Assembly (NCBI RefSeq): GCF_019879105.1
Contig: NZ_CP082249.1
Location: 868,001 to 932,000, forward strand
Direction: 5' to 3'
DNA length: 64,000 nt
Source of the DNA: Natrinema sp. SYSU A 869
Lineage (GTDB): Archaea; Halobacteriota; Halobacteria; Halobacteriales; Natrialbaceae
A program made the translations under genes and the position numbers. A model generated the notes under the pieces. That model saw only the letters and a list, made by a program, of their open reading frames with translations. It was not told where the DNA came from and did no database searches. Positions 16,688-33,073 of the stretch are shown here, piece by piece (position 1 is the stretch's first letter; each line of letters begins with the position of its first letter).

Positions 16688-17977
16688 ATGGCAAACGATT
16701 CATCCTCAAACGAGACTGATATACCCGAGCAGCGACGGATGACCACTGATCCCAAACGCATCAGGGAGTGGGCCGAGGCCCGCGATGCCGTTCCGGTCAG
16801 GGTCCGAGATAGCGAGGACCACGGCCACTCCTTTGTCCGCCGCGACGAAATGGGCGAAAGTCACGAGGAGTACACCTGGGACGAGTTTGAGGAGCGGTTC
16901 GAAGACGACGACCTCGTTTTCATCTATCACGAGACGGAACCGACCGGCGAGGGGATAGGCTTCTTCGAGATCGTCGAACGCGAGCGGGCGTTCGAACGTG
17001 CCGACCTCGGCCGGGACGAACTCGAGGACTCGCTGCGACGCGGCGAGACGGTGACGACTGAGATCGTCGAGACGCAGGTCGTCGAACGGGAGATCGTCGA
17101 GCGAGACACGATCGAGAGCGAGGTGATCGATACGGACCTGGTCGAACGCGACGTCGTCGATTCCGAACTGATTGATCGGACGATCGTCGAGACGGAGTTC
17201 GTCTCCGACGATATGATCGAACTGACCGTCGACGAGACGCGCCTCGATACCATCGAGGAGATCGAACGCTACATCGTCGAGAGCCGCGTCGTCGACGTCG
17301 ACATCGAGCAAGACGAGGAGATCGAGCGGGACGATATCCAGACGGACATCGAACTCGAGAGCGTCCAGCGATCGATTCTTGAGAGTGATGTCGTTCGCTC
17401 GAGCGTGACGCCCGACGATGTCGTCGAACAGGAAGTGATCCAGAGCCAACGGACCGAAGGCGACACCGTCCGGAGCGAACTCATCGAGCGCCGGACGATC
17501 GAAGAGGAGTTGACGGACCAGCGGCGGATGCGCTACGTGCTCGAGGAGAGCGAACTCATCGAGTCTGAGGTGATCACCAGCGACGTACTCGAGGGTGAGA
17601 TCATCGACGTCGACGAGTACGAGGCGATGGAAACCGGCGGCATGGAAACCGGAACTGCCGGGGCCACGGCCGACGAGACGATGGCCGAGACCGAGTCCGA
17701 CGCCGGCATGGGAACGACGGACGAGATGGCGGACGCGTCGGCGATCGAACTCTCGCCGGACGATCAGGGGAAAGACGTCGTCGACGAGTCGGGCCAGCAG
17801 ATCGGCATGGTTGCCGAAGTCGAGGGCCAGACGGCGTACGTCGACCCCGAGCCCGGGCTGACGGATCGGCTCAAAGCGCGGCTGGACTGGGGCGGCCACG
17901 GTGACGACGACTATCCGGTCGAGTCGGCACAGATAACCGAGATCACAGACGACGAAGTCGTCATCCGCAGCGAGTAA
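16688..17977 (+). CDS. Acidic five-residue-repeat protein with C-terminal PRC-barrel-like domain
   Basis: 429 residues, very acidic, no signal peptide or membrane segment. Residues about 15-110 form an N-terminal domain (RIREWAEARDAVPVRV, EYTWDEFEERFEDDDLVFIYHE). Residues about 115-320 repeat a five-residue pattern hydrophobic-hydrophobic-acidic-x-acidic/polar, for example IVERD TIESE VIDTD LVERD, for some forty units with a few interruptions, a periodicity that would suit a beta-solenoid or long beta meander. A Gly/Met/Thr/Glu-rich linker (about 320-355) leads to a domain of about 75 residues that resembles a PRC barrel (DVVDESGQQIGMVAEV, DDEVVIRSE). I recognise no described function. It lies alone, facing katG. 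Confidence 0.85.
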   Translation: MANDSSSNETDIPEQRRMTTDPKRIREWAEARDAVPVRVRDSEDHGHSFVRRDEMGESHEEYTWDEFEERFEDDDLVFIYHETEPTGEGIGFFEIVERERAFERADLGRDELEDSLRRGETVTTEIVETQVVEREIVERDTIESEVIDTDLVERDVVDSELIDRTIVETEFVSDDMIELTVDETRLDTIEEIERYIVESRVVDVDIEQDEEIERDDIQTDIELESVQRSILESDVVRSSVTPDDVVEQEVIQSQRTEGDTVRSELIERRTIEEELTDQRRMRYVLEESELIESEVITSDVLEGEIIDVDEYEAMETGGMETGTAGATADETMAETESDAGMGTTDEMADASAIELSPDDQGKDVVDESGQQIGMVAEVEGQTAYVDPEPGLTDRLKARLDWGGHGDDDYPVESAQITEITDDEVVIRSE

Positions 17978-20527: not shown

Positions 20528-20773
20528 TCAGCGTCTCGTCAGATCGACGATCAGATAGTCGTCAATGTCGCTCATACAGGAGGCCGGAACGATTATCTTT
20601 CCGTCATCGTTCGTATCGAACCTTCGAACGTTATCGATCGTCGGGGTCACAAGCAATCGTTGGAGTTCTCCGGTTTCGACGTTCATCGTGATGTTGTGAA
20701 CCGTGCCGATCTCCGTCCCGTCGGAGCCCATCACTGGCGTGTCGGAGAGGGTGGAAGCGAGGATCGTTGTCAT
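20528..20773 (-). CDS. PRC-barrel domain protein
   Basis: 81 residues making a single PRC-barrel fold: TLSDTPVMGSDGTEIGTVHNITMN at the N-terminus (two strands and the conserved Gly-turn), then LQRLLVTPT and KIIVPASCMSDIDDYLIVDL. Single-domain PRC-barrel proteins are common in haloarchaea and are related to RimM C-terminal domains and to photosynthetic reaction-centre H subunits; they often bind RNA, ribosome partners or membranes. It stands alone, 755 bases from katG's far side and close to the 3' end of the RimK gene but reading the same way. The complete start is the ATG at 20773. Confidence 0.88.
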   Translation of the reverse strand: MTTILASTLSDTPVMGSDGTEIGTVHNITMNVETGELQRLLVTPTIDNVRRFDTNDDGKIIVPASCMSDIDDYLIVDLTRR

Positions 20774-20880: not shown

Positions 20881-22224
20881 CTACTCTTCTTCCTCCGGCG
20901 TATCGGGCACATCGCTGTCGATTTGACGGCTGACGTCGACTTGATAGTTCTCGAGGATGTCCCGGCCGAGCAAGACGGGGTAATCCATGTGGCTGCGGTC
21001 CTCGACGCTGGCCGTTACGGTGTGTTGGTTGCCACCGACGCCGACGACGACGTCGACGACGGGCCGGCTCTTGGACTGTTTGCTACTCCCGGATCGGATT
21101 CGGGTAATGGACTTGATTGGGCCGGCACCAATGTCGGCGGCGAGGCCGGTATCGATGCTCGTCCGCGTCGCGCCCGTATCGGACTTTGCGAGCACCGACT
21201 TCGATCCGCTCGTTCCGGAAAGGACGATCTCCTCGGTGTACCCGATCACCGATGGTTCCGTGTCTTGAGCTACCGCCTCCGCGGGCTGCGCCGTCGGTCG
21301 GGAGTCGTCGAGAACGTTTGAAATCTCCTGTACTCGCTCGTCGTCGACTTCGCCGCCCGCACGTTCGATTGCCAGTTTCGCGATGTATGGTGCTGGGCTC
21401 ACTTGCGTTGCCTCGTAGAGTCCTTTGAATCCCGCTGTCGGGTTGACCTCGAGGACGAACCAGCCTTCGTCGCCCTCGACGAGGTCGACGCCGGCGTAGT
21501 CGAGGCCGACGATCTTGGCCGAACGACGGGCCATCTCGCGGGCCTCTTCGGGGAGGTCGTTGGTCGCGTCCTCGACGGAGCCCCCGAGGGCGACGTTGGT
21601 CCGCCAGTCGTTGTCCGGCGCGTAGCGGTACATCGCGGCGACGACCTCGCCGTCGACGACGTAGACGCGCAGATCACGGTGGCGGACGTCCGCTTGATCG
21701 ACGAGTTCCTGCAGGAAGGCGTAGCGGTTGCCGACTTTCGCATTGACCGGGTCGTCCGGCCCGACCTTCCACGTCCCGCCGCCGTGCGTACCGATCGCCG
21801 TCTTGTACACCGCCTCGTCGCCGTACCGTTCCCGCGCAGCGTTAAGCGTATCACCGCTGAGCGCAAGCGTCACGTCCGGTGTCCGAACGTCGTTCGACGC
21901 GAGCGCCGTCGCCGTCGAGAGCTTGTGAATCGCCGTCATCATCGCACTCGGTTCGTTGAGTGTCGGGATCAGCTGCGAAAACGCGTTTACCAGCCCGAGT
22001 TCCTCGGCGGGCTGTTCGGTGTTCGATAGCAGCATTCGGTTCGCGATCACGTCGACCTCGGGCTCGACAAGAGGGCTGCCGTCCGCGACGCTGATCGACG
22101 CGTTCTCGGTCCGAAGCCACTCGCTGTCGTGTCCGAGGTCCTCGACGGCGTTGAGAATTGCCTTAGTTTCCTTGCTCGTATGCAGGCTCAGTACCCCGAC
22201 GGTTACGGGATCGGCAACAGCCAT
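20881..22224 (-). CDS. RimK-type ATP-grasp ligase fused to a retropepsin-like protease domain
   Basis: 447 residues from the ATG at 22224. Residues about 1-310 are a RimK/LysX ATP-grasp ligase, which adds a glutamate or similar residue to a carboxyl group: YKTAIGTHGGGTWKV (nucleotide-binding loop), DLRVYVVDGEVVAAMYR, GVDLVEGDEGWFVLEVN (metal-binding Glu/Asn). Residues about 335-430 are a small aspartyl-protease-like domain with LAKSDTGATRTSID (active-site DTGA) and PVLLGRDIL (the psi-loop motif), as in the RimB-like putative ATP-dependent proteases usually encoded next to rimK. Fusing the modifier and the remover in one chain suggests a regulated glutamylation/deglutamylation cycle. The protein it modifies is unknown. 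The last bases (poly-Glu tail) are acidic. Confidence 0.9.
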   Translation of the reverse strand: MAVADPVTVGVLSLHTSKETKAILNAVEDLGHDSEWLRTENASISVADGSPLVEPEVDVIANRMLLSNTEQPAEELGLVNAFSQLIPTLNEPSAMMTAIHKLSTATALASNDVRTPDVTLALSGDTLNAARERYGDEAVYKTAIGTHGGGTWKVGPDDPVNAKVGNRYAFLQELVDQADVRHRDLRVYVVDGEVVAAMYRYAPDNDWRTNVALGGSVEDATNDLPEEAREMARRSAKIVGLDYAGVDLVEGDEGWFVLEVNPTAGFKGLYEATQVSPAPYIAKLAIERAGGEVDDERVQEISNVLDDSRPTAQPAEAVAQDTEPSVIGYTEEIVLSGTSGSKSVLAKSDTGATRTSIDTGLAADIGAGPIKSITRIRSGSSKQSKSRPVVDVVVGVGGNQHTVTASVEDRSHMDYPVLLGRDILENYQVDVSRQIDSDVPDTPEEEE

Positions 22225-22315: not shown

Positions 22316-23785
22316 TCAGCCAATGACCGACCGAACTTGTCCCGGATCGACCAGCCCGCTCAGCACCGCCAGCGCGCCCCACGTGATCGCTCCTACCGCG
22401 ATCGCGCCGAACAGCATGAGCAGGCTCGACACCATCGGCGTCACTAGCAACACGGAGACCGCCATCACGCCCGTAATTCCACAAATAAGTCCCGTCGTCC
22501 GGGCGAGCCGCCCGACGTGTAGGCCGAGTTCGGTGTGGACGATATAGAGGTTCACGGCGACGTACACCGAGTGGGTCGCGACCGTCGCGATCGCAGCGCC
22601 GACGACCCCGATCGTCGGAATCAGCAGGACGTTCAGTCCGAAGTTGGCGACGGCAGTCCCGCCCTTTGCGACGGCGCGCGCTCGAGCGCGCCCGAGGTAG
22701 TCAAGACTATCGCTGGTCAGGTTCGTAATCGCCTGCAACACGACGAATCCGGCGAGGACCTGCAGAATGGGGACTGCGTCCGCGTAGTCGTTCCCGATCA
22801 CCATCGTCAGGAACGGCTCCGCGACGATCGCGAGGCCGACCGCTGCCGGGATGTAAAGCAACAGGATGTTCGTCAGTGAGGTCTGATAGATCCGTCTGGC
22901 CTCCTCGAGTTCGCCGGCTGCCTTCTGTTCGCCGAAGTTCGGTGAGATGGTAAAGCCGAGCGACTCGGCGGGGGCGAGCACGAAATCGGTGATCTGTTTT
23001 GCGAGGGTATAGAACGCGACCGCGGCGGGGTTGAGGAAGAAGCCGACCAGCACGATGTCGATCTGTTTGTCGATGACGTTCGCGCTCCGGGTCGCCGTCA
23101 ACGGGATGCTGTACTCGAGTAACCGACGTGAGAGCCCGTCTTCGTACTCCTCGGCGGTCTCGTGTCGACTGTAGAAGCCGTAGTAGAGAATACCCATGCC
23201 GACGGCAGCAGCGATCGCGTAGCCGACGATGTAGCCGAAGAACGCGCCGAGCGCGCCGAGCCCCGCGAGCACGAACGCGACGGCGAAGATGAACCGGCCG
23301 GCCCCGCTGATCGCCTGGACGATCGCGCTGTAGCCGAGGTGATTAAACCCCTGAAGCGCCACCTGTGCGAAAGTGCTCCCGGAGAAGACGACGAGATAGA
23401 GCACGCCCGCAGCGAGAAACGGAGCCGCTCCGGGATCGCCGAGTGCAGTCGCGATCCGCTCGTGAAAGAGCAACAAGACGTAGCCGACGACCGTGAGCAG
23501 GATGATCTTGGCCGTGATCACCGACCTGAGGAGATACGGAATCTGGCCCGGATCCGTCTCGCGGTACTCCGAAATATACCGTGCGACGGACTTGCTGAGC
23601 CCGAGATCCGCGAACAGCTGGACGATAGCTAAGATACCGATCGCCCAGTACAGCGCGCCGTACCCGTCCGGATCGAGCAGGTACCGCGCCAGCACGAACA
23701 TTAACAACGCGCTCGAGATCATGTAGATCCCGCGCGCGACGAGCGTTGCCTTGAAGCCGTCGACGATGTGGTCCTCCCTGTTCAT
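22316..23785 (-). CDS. Polysaccharide flippase / oligosaccharide exporter (Wzx/MATE type)
   Basis: 489 residues with about 12-14 hydrophobic helices spread over the whole length. It begins MNREDHIVDGFKATLVARGIY, and shows YLLDPDGYGALYWAIGI, the family's first-loop motif, and LGLSKSVARYISEYR. The family moves lipid-linked glycans across the membrane; in haloarchaea it serves S-layer or N-glycan assembly. No glycosyltransferase gene flanks it here, so the substrate is unknown. It ends 91 bases before the RimK-protease gene and reads in the same direction, so the two may share a transcript. Confidence 0.92.
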   Translation of the reverse strand: MNREDHIVDGFKATLVARGIYMISSALLMFVLARYLLDPDGYGALYWAIGILAIVQLFADLGLSKSVARYISEYRETDPGQIPYLLRSVITAKIILLTVVGYVLLLFHERIATALGDPGAAPFLAAGVLYLVVFSGSTFAQVALQGFNHLGYSAIVQAISGAGRFIFAVAFVLAGLGALGAFFGYIVGYAIAAAVGMGILYYGFYSRHETAEEYEDGLSRRLLEYSIPLTATRSANVIDKQIDIVLVGFFLNPAAVAFYTLAKQITDFVLAPAESLGFTISPNFGEQKAAGELEEARRIYQTSLTNILLLYIPAAVGLAIVAEPFLTMVIGNDYADAVPILQVLAGFVVLQAITNLTSDSLDYLGRARARAVAKGGTAVANFGLNVLLIPTIGVVGAAIATVATHSVYVAVNLYIVHTELGLHVGRLARTTGLICGITGVMAVSVLLVTPMVSSLLMLFGAIAVGAITWGALAVLSGLVDPGQVRSVIG

Positions 23786-25183: not shown

Positions 25184-26274
25184 ATGAGCGATGACGTGGC
25201 GAGCGAGCCGCCCGGCCGGCACGACTCCGACGCGATGGCCGAGGCGTTTACGTACAACGGGGGAAGGTCGATCCCGGGGAGTCAGCGAACATCCGCTACG
25301 GCATCAGCGAAACGTATCTCGGGGATCCCGTCAGGATTCCCGTCACGGTGATCAACGGCGAATGGCCGGGGCCAACGGTCTTCCTCTCGGCGGCGGCCCA
25401 TGGCGACGAACTCAACGGGATCGAAGTCGTCCGCGAAGTCGCCCACGACTGGGATCACTCCGTCCTCCACGGGACGCTTGTCTGTCTCCCCGTCATGAAC
25501 GTCCCGGGCTTTCTCGCACAGGAGCGGTATCTGCCGATCTATGACCGGGATCTGAACCGGTCGTTCCCCGGCCGTGAGGGTTCGACGAGCGCCCGGCGGA
25601 TGGCCTATCGAATCTTCACGAACTTCATCGAACCCTGTGACCTTGGGATCGACTTCCACACATCGACGCGCGGGCGAACGAACATGCTGCACGTTCGTGC
25701 AAACATGGAGCAGTCAGGCGTCGCCAGACTCGCCAAGGCGTTCAGTTCTAACGTTATCATCGCTGGTGAGGGTCCCTCGGGGACGCTCCGCCGGGAGGCA
25801 ACCGAAGACGGGATCCCCACGATCACCGTCGAGATGGGCGAGGCCCACCGGTTCCAGCGCCGACTGATCGATCGCGGGCTCACCGGAGTCGCGAGCGTAC
25901 TCGCCGAATTCGGACTCCACCGCGAATCGTCGGTTCACTGGCCGGGCTGGCGGACCGTCATCGACGACGACAACGAGAAGACCTGGCTCCGCGCGGACGC
26001 GGGCGGCATCGTCGACATGAAACGCGGCCGCGGCGCGCTCGTCGAAGACGGCGAGGTCATCTGTACCATCACGAACCCGTTCAAGGAAAAGGACGACATC
26101 GTCACCGTCGAGGCTCCGTTTACCGGCCTCATCGTCGGCGTCCTCGAGAACCCCGTGGTCTACCCGGGGAACCCGCTCTGTCACCTCGTCGGTCTCTCAC
26201 CGGACACGCTTACCGCCCTCGAGCGCGAGCGGACGACGAAGAGTTCGCGGTCCGAACTCCGGCAGACCAACTGA
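25184..26274 (+). CDS. Succinylglutamate desuccinylase/aspartoacylase-family protein, frame interrupted
   Basis: The ATG at 25184 opens a frame encoding MSDDVASEPPGRH...FTYNGG and then goes out of frame. One extra G in the G5 run at 25259-25263 restores KVDPGESANIRYGIS and an unbroken 363-residue protein; without it the first usable start is a GTG at 25348. The rest is intact: AAAHGDELNGIEVVRE (zinc His and Glu), DLNRSFPG, LGIDFHTSTRG (second zinc His), and ITVEMGEAHRF (catalytic Glu region). The family removes acyl groups from amines or splits small amides. The C-terminal 100 residues look like a biotinyl/lipoyl-type barrel (DAGGIVDMKRGRGALVEDGE). I believe the gene is functional and the deletion is an error or a recent mutation. 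Confidence 0.85.
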
Positions 26275-26693: not shown

Positions 26694-27555
26694 GCCGCCA
26701 CGAGACTGGGTCGTACCCTCGCCCTTCGAAGATTTCTGCCTGGTACTCCTCTAGGCCGCTCGCATCTCGTTCCCGGATGCCGGCCCGATTGTCCGAACGA
26801 TTTCGTACAGTCGCTGGTGGGGGAGCGGCAGCGACCGTAAGTTTGCCTTCCGGATCTTCCGCTTCGCACGCTCGAATGCATCCGCGACGTCCTCGTTGAG
26901 CAATTGATCGTGGTTGCGCTCGAGAGCCAACTCCGCAGCGGACAACACCGACTTGATCGCCCACCGAGCGACGCCGCCGGTCTCGTCGGCGATCCACTCG
27001 AGGTGCCCCGGCTGAGTCGGGTCGTCAGTCAGTCCGTGTTCGACGCGGGGCTCGAGAATATCCACGAGCTCCTCAATCGAGTACTTCCGAAACTCGATCT
27101 GACTGTCGCCGTGGAAGTGGGGCCGGAGGTCGCGATCGACGCGGTTGAGCCACTCGACCTGCCGGTAGGCGATCGCGATCACCGAGACGCCGTCGACGGC
27201 GAACAGATCCTCAAGGACACCCAGGTCGGGGATGACGTCAGCCTCGTCAAGCACGAGGACGTAGGGCTCGCCGTCGACGGCCGCCTTGAGAGCGTCGACC
27301 AACTTGTCGGGGGTTATTGCGATGGACCACACCACTATCGGAGTGTTTGGTCACAGCCTCGTAGAGGATTCCGTTATGCGTCTCCCCAGAGCATTCAAGG
27401 ACTGCCGACTCGAGGGCGTAGCGCTGTCGGAGATCGCGCAGCATCCACTGGGCCGACGCGGTCTTCCTAACGCCGCTGGGACCATGGATTAACACGTTCT
27501 CCGCAGGAAAGCCATACTGAGTCTCCCAAGCAGCCGTGAGAGTACATGAAGTTCC
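26677..27555 (-). pseudogene. Broken Orc1/Cdc6-family AAA+ gene
   Basis: Read right to left, the first open part (27555 to about 27330) has ENVLIHGPSGVRKTASAQW: a Walker A loop whose second Gly is Arg (GVRKT instead of GVGKT). There is no ATG upstream (a TGA closes the frame at 27556-27558), only a GTG. A frameshift near 27330 leads to the frame with VLVLDEADVIPDLGVLEDLF (Walker B), a sensor region, and the helical lid with LPLPHQRLYEIVR, which stops after GNEMRAA at about 26751. A second shift continues it with LEEYQAEIFEGRGYDPVS, the start of the C-terminal winged helix, up to 26680. So the gene is missing both ends and has at least two shifts. It is of the plasmid/element type of Orc1/Cdc6. 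Confidence 0.75.
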
Positions 27556-29561: not shown

Positions 29562-29993
29562 ATGAGTCAGTCTTACAATCGCGGTCTCATCGAGGACTTC
29601 GGTCGCTGGAAGGAGTTCTCGGCCGGCATGTGGGCGTGGATCTTCCACAAGTTCACCGGATGGGTCCTGATCGGCTACCTGTTCACCCATATTGCCGTGC
29701 TGAGTACGTCTATCGGTGGCGCACAGGGCGAAACGACGATGGTCGACGGAGAAGCGGTCAACGTCTACACTGCGACGCTGCAGGGACTCGAGGGCCTGTT
29801 CCTCATCCGACTGCTTGAGGTCGGCCTGCTCGCGGTGGCCGTCTTCCACATCCTGAACGGCCTCCGCCTGCTGATGGTCGACCTCGGCGTTGGACTCGAG
29901 GCACAGGACAAGAGTTTCTACGCCTCACTGGTGTTGACGGGTGCGATCACCGTCGCGAGCGTTCCGACCTTCCTGACGGAGGTGTCCATCTAA
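29562..29993 (+). CDS. sdhC: Succinate dehydrogenase cytochrome b subunit SdhC
   Basis: 143 residues and three hydrophobic helices (about 28-48, 75-95 and 112-135), the layout of SdhC. Motifs include [20 protein letters not shown] and FTHIAVL, plus [15 protein letters not shown]; His residues in helices 1 and 2 would bind haem b. It anchors the complex in the membrane and takes part in quinone reduction. First gene of a four-gene operon with sdhD (overlapping ATGG), sdhB and sdhA. The minicistron in front of it is described separately. Confidence 0.95.
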
Positions 29994-30358
29994 TGGCGGA
30001 ACGATACTCCTCATTTACCCCCGGCGGCACCGGCTGGTTCCTCCAGCGGATCACGGCGGCGTTTCTTGTCGTCGTTCTCGCCTTCCACTTCTTCCTCTTG
30101 CACTTCGTCAATCACGCGTACGAAGTAACCTTCATGAGCACTCAGGCCCGAATGGAGAACGTTGGTTACTTCCTCACGATGGTTCTGTTCCTGATCACTG
30201 CCACGTTCCACGGCGTCAACGGCGTCTACAACGCGCTGATCAATCAGGGTCTCGAGGGAACCCAGAAGAAGGTCGTGCTAGCGGTGCTGGTCCTCGCCAG
30301 CGTCGCACTCATCGCACAGGGAACCTACGTCGCACTCGTAATGAGAGGACTGATCTAA
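29993..30358 (+). CDS. sdhD: Succinate dehydrogenase membrane anchor SdhD
   Basis: 121 residues with three hydrophobic helices. Starts [25 protein letters not shown], with FHFFLLHFVNHAYEV and ATFHGVNGVYNAL; the conserved His residues are consistent with haem/quinone sites. Its ATG overlaps the end of sdhC (the last A of TAA region), so the two are translated together. It pairs with SdhC to hold SdhAB at the inner face of the membrane. Confidence 0.93.
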   Translation: MAERYSSFTPGGTGWFLQRITAAFLVVVLAFHFFLLHFVNHAYEVTFMSTQARMENVGYFLTMVLFLITATFHGVNGVYNALINQGLEGTQKKVVLAVLVLASVALIAQGTYVALVMRGLI

Positions 30359-30359
30359 T

Positions 30360-31232
30360 ATGAGTACACAACAAGCCGAACCCGAGAGTCAAGAAGCACC
30401 GGAAGATCCGGAGATGAAAGGTGCGGAGTCGCCAGCGGCCGAAGAGCAGAAAGGCGGCGGCATGGTCGACAAACACGCCGAAAAACGAGCGGAACTCGAG
30501 GGGGAGACGGTCCATATCAAGGTGTTCCGCTACGACCCCGAAATCGAGGGCAAACAGGAGCCCCGTTTCGATGACTTCCACGTCCCCTTCGAAAAGGGGA
30601 TGACCGTCCTTGACGCGGTTATGTACGCCCGCGACGAGTACGACTCGTCGCTGACCTTCCGACACTCCTGTCGGCAGGCCGTCTGCGGTTCCGACGCGTT
30701 CTTTGTCAACGGCAAGCAGCGACTGGGTTGCAAGACCCAGATCTCGGAACTCGAGCAGCCGGTTCGCATCGAGCCGCTGCCCCATCAGGAGGTCGTCAAG
30801 GATCTGGTCGTCGACATGGATCACTTCTACGACCAGATGCACACGGTCGAGCCGTACTTCCAAGACGAGGATACGCCCGACACGGACGCGCTCGAAGAAC
30901 AACGCCAGAGCCCGGAAAACCGCGAGAAGATCAAGATGTCCTCGCGATGTATCTGGTGTGGCGCGTGTATGTCCTCGTGTAACATCGCGGCCGGCGACAA
31001 CGAGTATCTGGGCCCCGCGGCGATCAACAAGGCCTACAAGTTCGCGATGGACGACCGCGAGGGCGAGGAGATCAAGGAGCACCGACTCCGCATTCTCGAG
31101 CAGGAACATGGCGTCTGGCGGTGCCAGACCCAGTTCTCCTGTACTGAGGTGTGTCCGAAGGACATTCCGCTCACCGAGCACATTCAGGAGCTCAAGCGGG
31201 AAGCAGTCAAGAAGAACCTGAAGTTCTGGTAA
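30360..31232 (+). CDS. sdhB: Succinate dehydrogenase iron-sulfur subunit SdhB
   Basis: 290 residues with an N-terminal [2Fe-2S] ferredoxin fold, FRHSCRQAVCGSDAF and RLGCKTQ, where the Asp in CGSD is normal for SdhB, followed by the C-terminal helical domain with CIWCGACMSSC and FSCTEVCPKDIPL for the [4Fe-4S] and [3Fe-4S] clusters. A 50-residue acidic, Glu/Pro-rich leader (QAEPESQEAPEDPEMKG) precedes the fold. It relays electrons from SdhA FAD to quinone. Starts one base after the sdhD stop. Confidence 0.96.
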   Translation: MSTQQAEPESQEAPEDPEMKGAESPAAEEQKGGGMVDKHAEKRAELEGETVHIKVFRYDPEIEGKQEPRFDDFHVPFEKGMTVLDAVMYARDEYDSSLTFRHSCRQAVCGSDAFFVNGKQRLGCKTQISELEQPVRIEPLPHQEVVKDLVVDMDHFYDQMHTVEPYFQDEDTPDTDALEEQRQSPENREKIKMSSRCIWCGACMSSCNIAAGDNEYLGPAAINKAYKFAMDDREGEEIKEHRLRILEQEHGVWRCQTQFSCTEVCPKDIPLTEHIQELKREAVKKNLKFW

Positions 31233-31234
31233 TT

Positions 31235-33073
31235 ATGTACGAACACGACGTTATCGTGGTCGGCGCCGGCGGCGCCGGCCTCCGGGCCGCGATCGCAGCG
31301 AACGAGGCGGGAGCTGACGTGGCAATGGTCTCGAAGCTCCACCCCGTCCGAAGCCACACCGGCGCGGCGGAGGGTGGCATCAATGCCGCCCTCCAGGAGG
31401 GCGACGACTGGGAACTCCACGCCTACGACACGATGAAGGGGTCGGACTACCTCGGCGACGCGCCCGCAGTCGAGACCCTCGCCCAGGACGCTCCCGAGGA
31501 GACGATCAACTTAGAGCACTGGGGGATGCCGTTCTCCCGCGAGGACGACGGCCGGGTCTCCCAGCGACCGTTCGGCGGACTCTCGTACCCGCGGACCACC
31601 TACGCCGGCGCGGAGACCGGCCACCACCTGCTGCACACGATGTACGAGCAGGTCGTCAAACGAGGCATCCAAGTCTACGACGAGTGGTACGTCATGGATC
31701 TGGCGACGACCGACGAGTCCGATCCCAATGATCGGGAGTGCCACGGCGTCGTCGCCTACGACGTCCAGTCCGGCAACATTGAAGGCTTCAAGGCGAATCA
31801 GGGCGTCGTCCTCGCGACCGGTGGCCCCGGACAGGCCTTCGATCACACCACCAACGCCGTCTCCTGTACCGGCGACGGCCACGCCATGGCCTACCGTGCG
31901 GGCGCGCCGATCGAGGACATGGAATTCATCCAGTTCCACCCGACGTCGCTGCCGTCAACGGGCGTCCTCATCTCCGAGGGTGTCCGCGGCGAGGGTGGCA
32001 TCCTATACAACAACGAGGGCGAGCGGTTCATGTTCGAGCACGGCTACGCGAACAACTCCGGCGAGCTCGCCTCGCGGGACGTCGTCGCCCGCGCCGAACT
32101 CACCGAGGTCAACGAAGGCCGCGGCGTCGAGGACGAGTACGTTCACCTCGACATGCGCCACCTCGGCGAGGAGCGCATCATGGATCGCCTCGAGAACATC
32201 CTCCACCTCGCAGAGGACTTCGAAGGCGTCGACGGGCTCGTCGAGCCGATGCCGGTCAAGCCCGGGCAACACTACGCCATGGGTGGTATCGAGGTCGACG
32301 AGAACGGCCAGACCTGCGTTAACGGCCTCTACGCCGCTGGCGAGTGTGCCTGCGTCTCCGTCCACGGTGGCAACCGGCTCGGTGGGAACGCCCTGCCGGA
32401 ACTGATCGTCTTCGGCAAGCGCGCCGGCCGCCACGCCGCCGGCGAGGATCTGGGCGATCCCGAGATTCGGACCGGCTACGGCGACGACGTCGAGGACGAG
32501 ACCGAGACCGAGCTCCCAGTCGCCCCCGGCGAAGCGGGACTCGACACGAGCGGTGGTGTCGCCGCAGACGGTGGCGTTACTGCCGATGCCGAAGGTATCC
32601 TCGAGCGGACCGTCGAAACGGCTCGCGAGCGCGTCGACCGCCTGATGGACAAGGACGACGGCGTCCAGCACGCCGAGATCCGCGCAAAGCTCCAAAAGGC
32701 CATGACCGACTACGTCAACGTCTTCCGGACCGAGGAGGGCGTCAAGAAAGCACTCGAGATCATCCGTGAGTGTCGACAGGAGTACCAGGACGTCTACGTC
32801 GACGACCCCTCGAAGACGTTCAACACGGACCTCCAGCAGACGATCGAAACGCGGAACCTGATCGACGTCGCCGAGACGATCGCGCTCGGCGCGCTCGTAC
32901 GCAACGAGTTCCGCGGCGCTCACTGGCGACAGGAGAACCAGATCCGCGACGACGAGAACTGGCTCAAGCACACGCTCATCTCCTGGGACGAGGGCGAACC
33001 CTCGATCTTCTATCGACCGGTCATTCTCGAGGGCGAGAACAAGACCTACGAGCCGAAAGAGCGCAGTTACTGA
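31235..33073 (+). CDS. sdhA: Succinate dehydrogenase flavoprotein SdhA
   Basis: 612 residues starting MYEHDVIVVGAGGAGLRAAI; the start is the ATG two bases after the sdhB stop, the longer upstream frame being overlap. The covalent-FAD His is in VRSHTGAAEGGINAAL, and FIQFHPTSL, EGVRGEGGILYN, PGQHYAMGGIEVD and GGNRLGGNALPEL line the active site. A short variable insert (DVEDETETELPVAPGEAG) sits before the C-terminal domain. It oxidises succinate to fumarate in the TCA cycle. It resembles the flavoprotein at 13922 in domain order, but only this one has SDH partners. Confidence 0.97.
   Translation: MYEHDVIVVGAGGAGLRAAIAANEAGADVAMVSKLHPVRSHTGAAEGGINAALQEGDDWELHAYDTMKGSDYLGDAPAVETLAQDAPEETINLEHWGMPFSREDDGRVSQRPFGGLSYPRTTYAGAETGHHLLHTMYEQVVKRGIQVYDEWYVMDLATTDESDPNDRECHGVVAYDVQSGNIEGFKANQGVVLATGGPGQAFDHTTNAVSCTGDGHAMAYRAGAPIEDMEFIQFHPTSLPSTGVLISEGVRGEGGILYNNEGERFMFEHGYANNSGELASRDVVARAELTEVNEGRGVEDEYVHLDMRHLGEERIMDRLENILHLAEDFEGVDGLVEPMPVKPGQHYAMGGIEVDENGQTCVNGLYAAGECACVSVHGGNRLGGNALPELIVFGKRAGRHAAGEDLGDPEIRTGYGDDVEDETETELPVAPGEAGLDTSGGVAADGGVTADAEGILERTVETARERVDRLMDKDDGVQHAEIRAKLQKAMTDYVNVFRTEEGVKKALEIIRECRQEYQDVYVDDPSKTFNTDLQQTIETRNLIDVAETIALGALVRNEFRGAHWRQENQIRDDENWLKHTLISWDEGEPSIFYRPVILEGENKTYEPKERSY

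Follow-up and report, generated by a model that had tools for sequence, protein, structure and literature searches.

Fusion of a RimK-type ligase and a retropepsin in haloarchaea, with a C-terminal tail that almost always ends in glutamate

In the window examined here, a stretch of 64,000 nucleotides from Natrinema sp. SYSU A 869, the minus strand carries a single open reading frame (20881..22224) that runs from an ATG at 22224 to 20881 and encodes 447 amino acids followed by a stop. Translation, Pfam, and NCBIfam place a RimK-family ATP-grasp ligase ahead of a retropepsin in its product; an in-frame TTG upstream, at 22323, is a possible alternative start. At exactly these coordinates, a sequence-only reading had seen a RimK-type ligase joined to a retropepsin-like domain that bears DTGA and LLGRD motifs, leaving the strand unstated, and Pfam, the structural model, and fold matches bear this assignment out. 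On the minus strand, the ligase spans residues 7–291 (21352..22206; VIA Z 28.7 to 7qys/5zct) and is followed by a linker of residues 292–324 (21253..21351), in which the AlphaFold2 pLDDT falls below 50 at 318–323, and then by the retropepsin domain at residues 325–433 (20926..21252), which is identified by the model, by fold matches, and by sequence profile matches to 9g59, 2pma, and 9g58. Alignment places a DTGA motif with the putative catalytic Asp349 at residues 349–352 (21169..21180) and an LLGRD motif at residues 418–422 (20959..20973), and a run of four glutamates, EEEE, at residues 444–447 (20884..20895; alignment and model) closes a tail, residues 436–447, that is predicted to be disordered (pLDDT <50 in AlphaFold2). 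Pfam matches RimK at residues 100–275 (E 1.7e-22) and Zn_protease PF05618 at residues 369–434 (E 1.1e-10, 42 bits), and the AlphaFold2 model of the whole fusion consists of two confidently predicted domains (mean pLDDT 86.0, pTM 0.77). Directly downstream on the same strand lies a gene for an 81-aa PRC-barrel protein (20528–20773), and an acidic, repetitive protein of 429 aa is encoded on the plus strand at 16688–17977, with relatives in 6 of the loci compared and no Pfam or NCBIfam match.

The fusion in the window is confirmed as real. A gene-calling artefact, which the sequence-only reading had itself considered, is ruled out by the single frames of 36 out of 41 sampled relatives, each with one match reaching residue 437 or further, and is also countered by the end-to-end alignment of 39 chosen fusions drawn from haloarchaeal families and plasmids; a chance motif is ruled out by the sequence profile and fold matches. 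The other five sampled relatives (G026, G027, G032, G033, and G034) have other RimK proteins only. The search across archaea that had been proposed shows the fusion to be conserved over the haloarchaea. In a sample of the phylum, PF05618 occurs in 89 of 294 genomes: within the window's order it is found in 47 of 53 genomes, all in fused-size frames of 445–1068 residues (the total of 53 being taken from a kinship-ordered listing, with 185 matchless genomes unlisted), while outside the order it is found in 42 of 241 genomes in frames of 104–305 residues. Frame length alone is not proof of a ligase half; in the copies that were fetched, this half was read directly. Scanning named genomes gave 327 relatives, the best 80 of which have haloarchaeal titles and cover the query from residues 1–7 to residues 436–447. 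On plasmids, 11 records reach 80% coverage or more, all haloarchaeal.

Because fold searches with the whole model gave only ATP-grasp matches, the C-terminal domain was folded alone (mean pLDDT 84.6). Its first fold matches are RloA2, RloA, and a Legionella DUF785 protein, followed by Ddi1 and retroviral proteases, with a VIA Z of 13.3 for both 2pma and 9g59 and of 12.7 for 9g58; the suspicion that this domain might lack the retropepsin fold is thus dispelled by matches at Z ~13. With DTG at residues 349–351 and a predicted retropepsin fold, the fusion has the motif and the fold of an A2-like retropepsin in the sense of MEROPS. Its score of 42 bits for PF05618 (Zn_protease/DUF785) exceeds the gathering cut-off of 27 bits, and all 41 C-terminal domains aligned match the same profile with E values of 0.01 or below. 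The RimB equivalog NF052261, on the other hand, gives 16.1 bits against a cut-off of 200, and the best-scoring NCBIfam retropepsin models are those of the RloA retropepsins. The domain is also shorter than RimB, with about 24 residues missing after the DTG half.

Constant conservation of the catalytic aspartate had been named as a point to check, and it does not hold: column 349 is Asp in 37 of the 39 aligned fusions, 36 of which have the complete D-[TS]-G. LGRD is invariant (39/39). The three sequences that have lost D-[TS]-G (L072, L106, and L109) belong to one haloarchaeal family, and all three keep LGRD; two also keep the terminal Glu, which L072 has lost as well. The genomes of L072 and L109 each hold a second, DTG-bearing copy (L071 and L074), and a further copy in the group, L068, keeps DTG. 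The three sequences without the motif are possible pseudoproteases. Such losses would suit an arrangement in which the protease half has chiefly a structural or regulatory role and stimulates the ligase, with proteolysis secondary or lost, much as RimB is described in PMC11957791 as a bifunctional protein that stimulates poly-Glu synthesis by RimK. We regard this as quite improbable, given that DTG is kept in 80 of 80 loci when the best 80 of the 327 named-genome relatives are considered.

In the ligase half (residues 7–291), the whole model matches RimK, ArgX, and LysX, with VIA Z between 26.8 and 28.7 for the best nine. At the level of the RimK family, the window fusion passes the subfamily model TIGR00768 (155.7 bits, cut-off 143.4), and four other fusions fall just under it (135.4–141.2 bits). 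None of the narrower equivalogs is reached: NF007764, the RimK ribosomal S6 glutamate ligase, scores 66.8 bits against 331, and MptN, LysX, and CofF score 122.9 against 350, 116.5 against 275.6, and 50 against 300 bits, respectively. Alignment pairs K141, E173, R186, N210, D247, E259, and N261 of the fusion with K141, E178, R189, N213, D248, E260, and N262 of bacterial RimK. These include the nucleotide contacts K141, E173, and N210 and the metal/acid residues D247, E259, and N261, which we take to be catalytic. The Glu-chain contacts of P. aeruginosa RimK include S7, R64, S68, R189, and N262 (PMC10092738), and 5 of 7 contacts are kept in the fusion, these five becoming S13, R63, S67, R186, and N261; the other two are changed, from R8 to L14 and from S14 to E19.

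Phylogenetic inference places this ligase apart from its bacterial namesakes. In a first tree, the fusion ligase groups with LysX- and MptN-like rows and not with bacterial RimK (98/98). For a second tree, five rows of the first were dropped because they were in the wrong frame (L213–L215) or gappy (L230 and L232), and L218 and two fusion rows were also left out, as near-copies or to keep the tree smaller; here, the placement of the fusions among the LysX-/MptN-like rows is weak (51/59). This second tree, of 31 ligase domains, resolves seven fusions as one group (100/100) and nine bacterial-type RimK/RimBK sequences as another (100/100). A tree constrained to unite the fusions with two RimBK rows is 40.5 log units worse (p-AU 0.0008), and one that unites them with all nine bacterial-type rows is 19.8 log units worse (p-AU 0.013), the constrained groups having been tested after the first tree had been seen. 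As the ligase lies outside the bacterial RimK lineage, glutamate is its presumed rather than its established substrate; and as it groups away from bacterial RimK with two of seven Glu-chain contacts changed, the added residue may not be glutamate. The known target of RimK, S6, is probably not that of the fusion, since a profile search of this one Natrinema genome did not find bS6 (PF01250).

The same evidence gives some weight to a different kind of enzyme, in which the ligase, in the manner of MptN, CofF, or LysX/ArgX, would make or modify a small molecule or an amino acid bound to a carrier, and release or recycling of the product would fall to the retropepsin and an AstE-like hydrolase encoded nearby. 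The grouping in the first tree, the rejected union with bacterial RimK/RimBK, the higher NCBIfam scores for MptN and LysX than for RimK (all under their cut-offs), and the presence of ArgX and LysX among the best fold matches are all consistent with it. LysX and ArgX are RimK-family ligases with LysW as their protein acceptor, and they are close to the fusion in fold and nearby in the tree; LysW ends in a C-terminal Glu, on which LysX and ArgX act. They differ from the fusion in that they have no fused protease and their carrier is a separate protein. In the neighbourhoods compared, we find no conserved adjacent gene for a free carrier protein or a cofactor, and fusion to a retropepsin of the poly-Glu type points to a peptide product, so that we consider this reading unlikely. 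The Glu-ended tail of the fusion could itself be the carrier, in which case this alternative would merge with the glutamate-tail reading developed below.

A ligase–protease hybrid with its domains in the opposite order is known from bacteria. The sequence-only reading had held that ligase and protease are separate genes in bacteria; this needs correction, as Little and co-workers describe a bacterial RimBK hybrid in which the RimB domain is N-terminal to RimK and which is active as a protease on poly-glutamylated RpsF, although glutamylation of the tested RpsF by RimBK was not observed (PMC11957791). The survey in that paper covers bacterial accessions, mostly Flavobacteriales and Rhodobacterales. 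RimBK (from Desulfotalea psychrophila and others) and the haloarchaeal fusion are alike in combining a RimK-type ligase and a RimB-type retropepsin in one chain, whereas the order is protease then ligase in the former and ligase then protease in the latter, and the C-terminal residue is Glu in the haloarchaeal fusions, compared to A and D in the two RimBK sequences read. Descent from bacterial RimBK is ruled out by the constrained-tree tests (p-AU 0.0008). The reversed domain order and the rejected grouping together indicate an independent archaeal variant, and judging from sequence, the haloarchaeal fusion looks to have arisen independently of RimBK. That a ligase–protease fusion would have arisen at least twice, in opposite orders, argues that having both activities at a fixed ratio is useful. 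Among listings of the open-licence literature, we recognised no paper describing the haloarchaeal fusion.

What is new here is the C-terminal tail of the haloarchaeal fusion, which ends in Glu. Past the retropepsin core, the tail is 6–30 residues long, variable in sequence, and acidic (mean of 6.1 acidic residues in the last 10). Among 105 distinct tails, the last residue is Glu in 101 and Asp in none. A terminal Glu is found in 37 of the 39 aligned fusions and in 78 of the best 80 of the 327 named-genome relatives, and a terminal Glu-Glu in 33 and 62 of these, respectively; counted by genus or MAG group, 39 of 41 contain Glu-ended members only. For comparison, of 451 control proteins from these loci, 80 end in Glu and 4 in Glu-Glu. 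Twelve ortholog clusters cover 12 or more loci each, and that of the fusion is the only one with a Glu-Glu end in the majority of its proteins (78%). KatG from these loci shows a single terminal Glu in 94%, with no EE, and a terminal Glu by itself is therefore no proof. The bacterial RimK, RimB, and RimBK proteins read have no Glu end (0/8), while stand-alone methanogen RimB has one in 4 of 10 printed sequences. Because related sequences are not independent, all of these tail counts are descriptive. Glutamate runs are short, with the longest being at most 5 in 99 of 105 tails and the terminal run at most 4 in 100 of 105.

An acidic tail with this ending might alternatively act as a plug that inhibits the enzyme itself, or keep the protein soluble as an adaptation to salt, with another protein as the real substrate, which we judge possible but on the doubtful side. 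Its predicted disorder and its acidity fit either role, and the RloA channel is reported to be positively charged (PMC12239564). A solubility tail, however, should end in Asp as readily as in Glu, yet Asp never comes last although the two are equally common in the tail body (Asp 19%, Glu 19%), and for a plug, Glu as the very last residue would not be required.

A further feature of the locus is an AstE/AspA-like hydrolase gene, the divergent partner of the fusion (25348..26274, plus strand; PF24827, E 6e-47). Its first codons lie in another frame (25184–25348, plus strand), and the catalytic frame from 25348 encodes 308 aa, compared to 360–368 aa in relatives; this start looks broken, either by a real lesion or by a sequencing error. 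Out of 40 neighbourhoods of 16 kb, 32 have an AstE/aspartoacylase-family gene upstream of and divergent to the fusion, and the other 8 lack AstE. The chance expectation is small, as the genome of 5.67 Mb has 6 AstE_AspA matches, which would place one in ~1.7% of 16-kb stretches. Three loci (L068, L075, and L089) in which the fused frame is present but was missed by the gene caller are absent from the separate gene-by-gene comparison of neighbourhoods, on which the statements about carrier and cofactor genes and about the 429-aa acidic protein are based. An AstE-like gene is near 1 of 6 lower-identity second copies of the fusion and 31 of 34 other copies. In the named scan, only 36 of the best 80 of 327 loci show AstE, because the 3-kb flanks are too short where genes intervene. 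An AstE homologue is found in 4 of 8 haloarchaeal plasmids, these being 8 of the 11 plasmid records mentioned above: two at 70–71% identity, one at 28.5%, and one split over two frames. The one at 28.5% identity to that of the window is on a Haladaptatus pallidirubidus plasmid (L111), where the fusion is also near a gene of the glutamate–cysteine ligase family. The sequence-only reading had viewed the fusion as a self-contained writer and eraser; both domains do occupy one chain, while self-containment is doubtful with an AstE-like gene alongside in so many neighbourhoods.

We lean slightly towards reading the haloarchaeal fusion as a two-headed enzyme that would write and trim glutamate tails. 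By sequence and predicted fold, one chain provides a RimK-family ATP-grasp ligase, a short linker, and one retropepsin half. A retropepsin active site needs two domains and RimK is a tetramer, so that the fusion is most likely a dimer or tetramer with its protease domains paired. The ligase would join amino acids, most likely glutamate, onto the C-terminal Glu of a protein, and the retropepsin would trim a sufficiently long chain, like the separate RimB on RpsF in Pseudomonas. The linked AstE-like hydrolase may then complete the removal or degrade released oligo-Glu.

The nearest acceptor would be the tail of the fusion itself, Glu-ended almost without exception. RimK adds Glu at the C-terminal Glu of RpsF, and on this basis we propose that the fusion's own tail accepts the added residues and that its retropepsin trims them. 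RimB cuts chains of ~6 or more Glu (5 counting the encoded one) and leaves Asp tails uncut, and RloA is reported to need 8 Glu and to fail at 6 (PMC12239564); these closest characterised relatives thus cut poly-Glu and spare poly-Asp or short runs. Since the encoded tails are mostly below the 5–6 contiguous Glu needed by bacterial RimB, only an extended tail would be cut. A self-acceptor that carries its own trimmer would need a tail of this kind, ending in Glu but just under the length at which cutting begins. The fusion might therefore be its own substrate, with the ligase extending the tail and the retropepsin, which would ignore runs shorter than ~6 Glu, cutting the extended tail, either as a self-limiting switch or as a self-primed release of oligo-glutamate for the AstE-like partner. 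We put this forward tentatively, as a proposal with clearly less than even prospects. A text search of two RimK papers found no wording for self-glutamylation. If the reading as a glutamate-tail enzyme is true, a writer and an eraser of such tails would exist in a domain of life without bS6, the only established protein target, giving archaea a reversible C-terminal modification; if the self-acceptor proposal is also true, they would carry their own acceptor, and the question of the archaeal target would be reduced to a mass measurement on one protein.

Related activities are combined differently elsewhere. In the RloA/RloC system of Pseudomonas, the RloA retropepsins, which are the best structural matches to the fusion, are linked to an ATP-grasp protein, but RloA differs from the fusion in being secreted and encoded by a separate gene, with a transglutaminase-like RloB (PMC12239564). 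The same three predicted activities as in haloarchaea adjoin in a separate RimK–RimB–AstE-like cluster on Phaeobacter, Vibrio, and Salinivibrio plasmids and in methanogen-side loci. There, they are single genes on one strand, whereas in haloarchaea ligase and protease are fused and the AstE-like gene is divergent, and the fusion ligase is just 27% identical to the Salinivibrio and Phaeobacter RimK. Among eight bacterial plasmid regions, these three have rimB, rimK, and astE-like genes adjacent, two (Thioclava and Aureibacter) encode RimBK and show no annotated AstE in the vicinity, and the last three carry RimK-like genes of other kinds. The methanogen-side loci hold rimB, rimK, and AstE-like genes together in 15 of 24 cases, with a RimK 73–77% identical to that of Salinivibrio, and from sequence comparison this bacterial-type cluster (L035–L049) looks like a transfer between domains. 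The other 9 of 24, mostly of a divergent PF05618 type, have no RimK or AstE within the flanks; the divergent type stands alone in L050–L054, L056, L057, and L059, with RimK and AstE not found within 1.5 kb. The recurrence of the same RimB/RimK/AstE-like trio in different orders suggests one pathway. We claim no priority for the RimK–RimB–AstE-like cluster, as a 2009 amidoligase survey by Iyer may already cover the association of RimK with DUF785 and AstE. Finally, succinate dehydrogenase genes (29562–33073 in the window) are syntenic with the fusion in haloarchaea, a synteny that is probably not functional, since the two plasmids with AstE homologues at 70–71% identity keep the adjacency of the AstE-like gene and the fusion without the succinate dehydrogenase genes; between the AstE-like and succinate dehydrogenase genes of the window lies an Orc1/Cdc6-related piece of 194 aa (26751–27335, minus strand; TIGR02928, 54 bits, cut-off 181).
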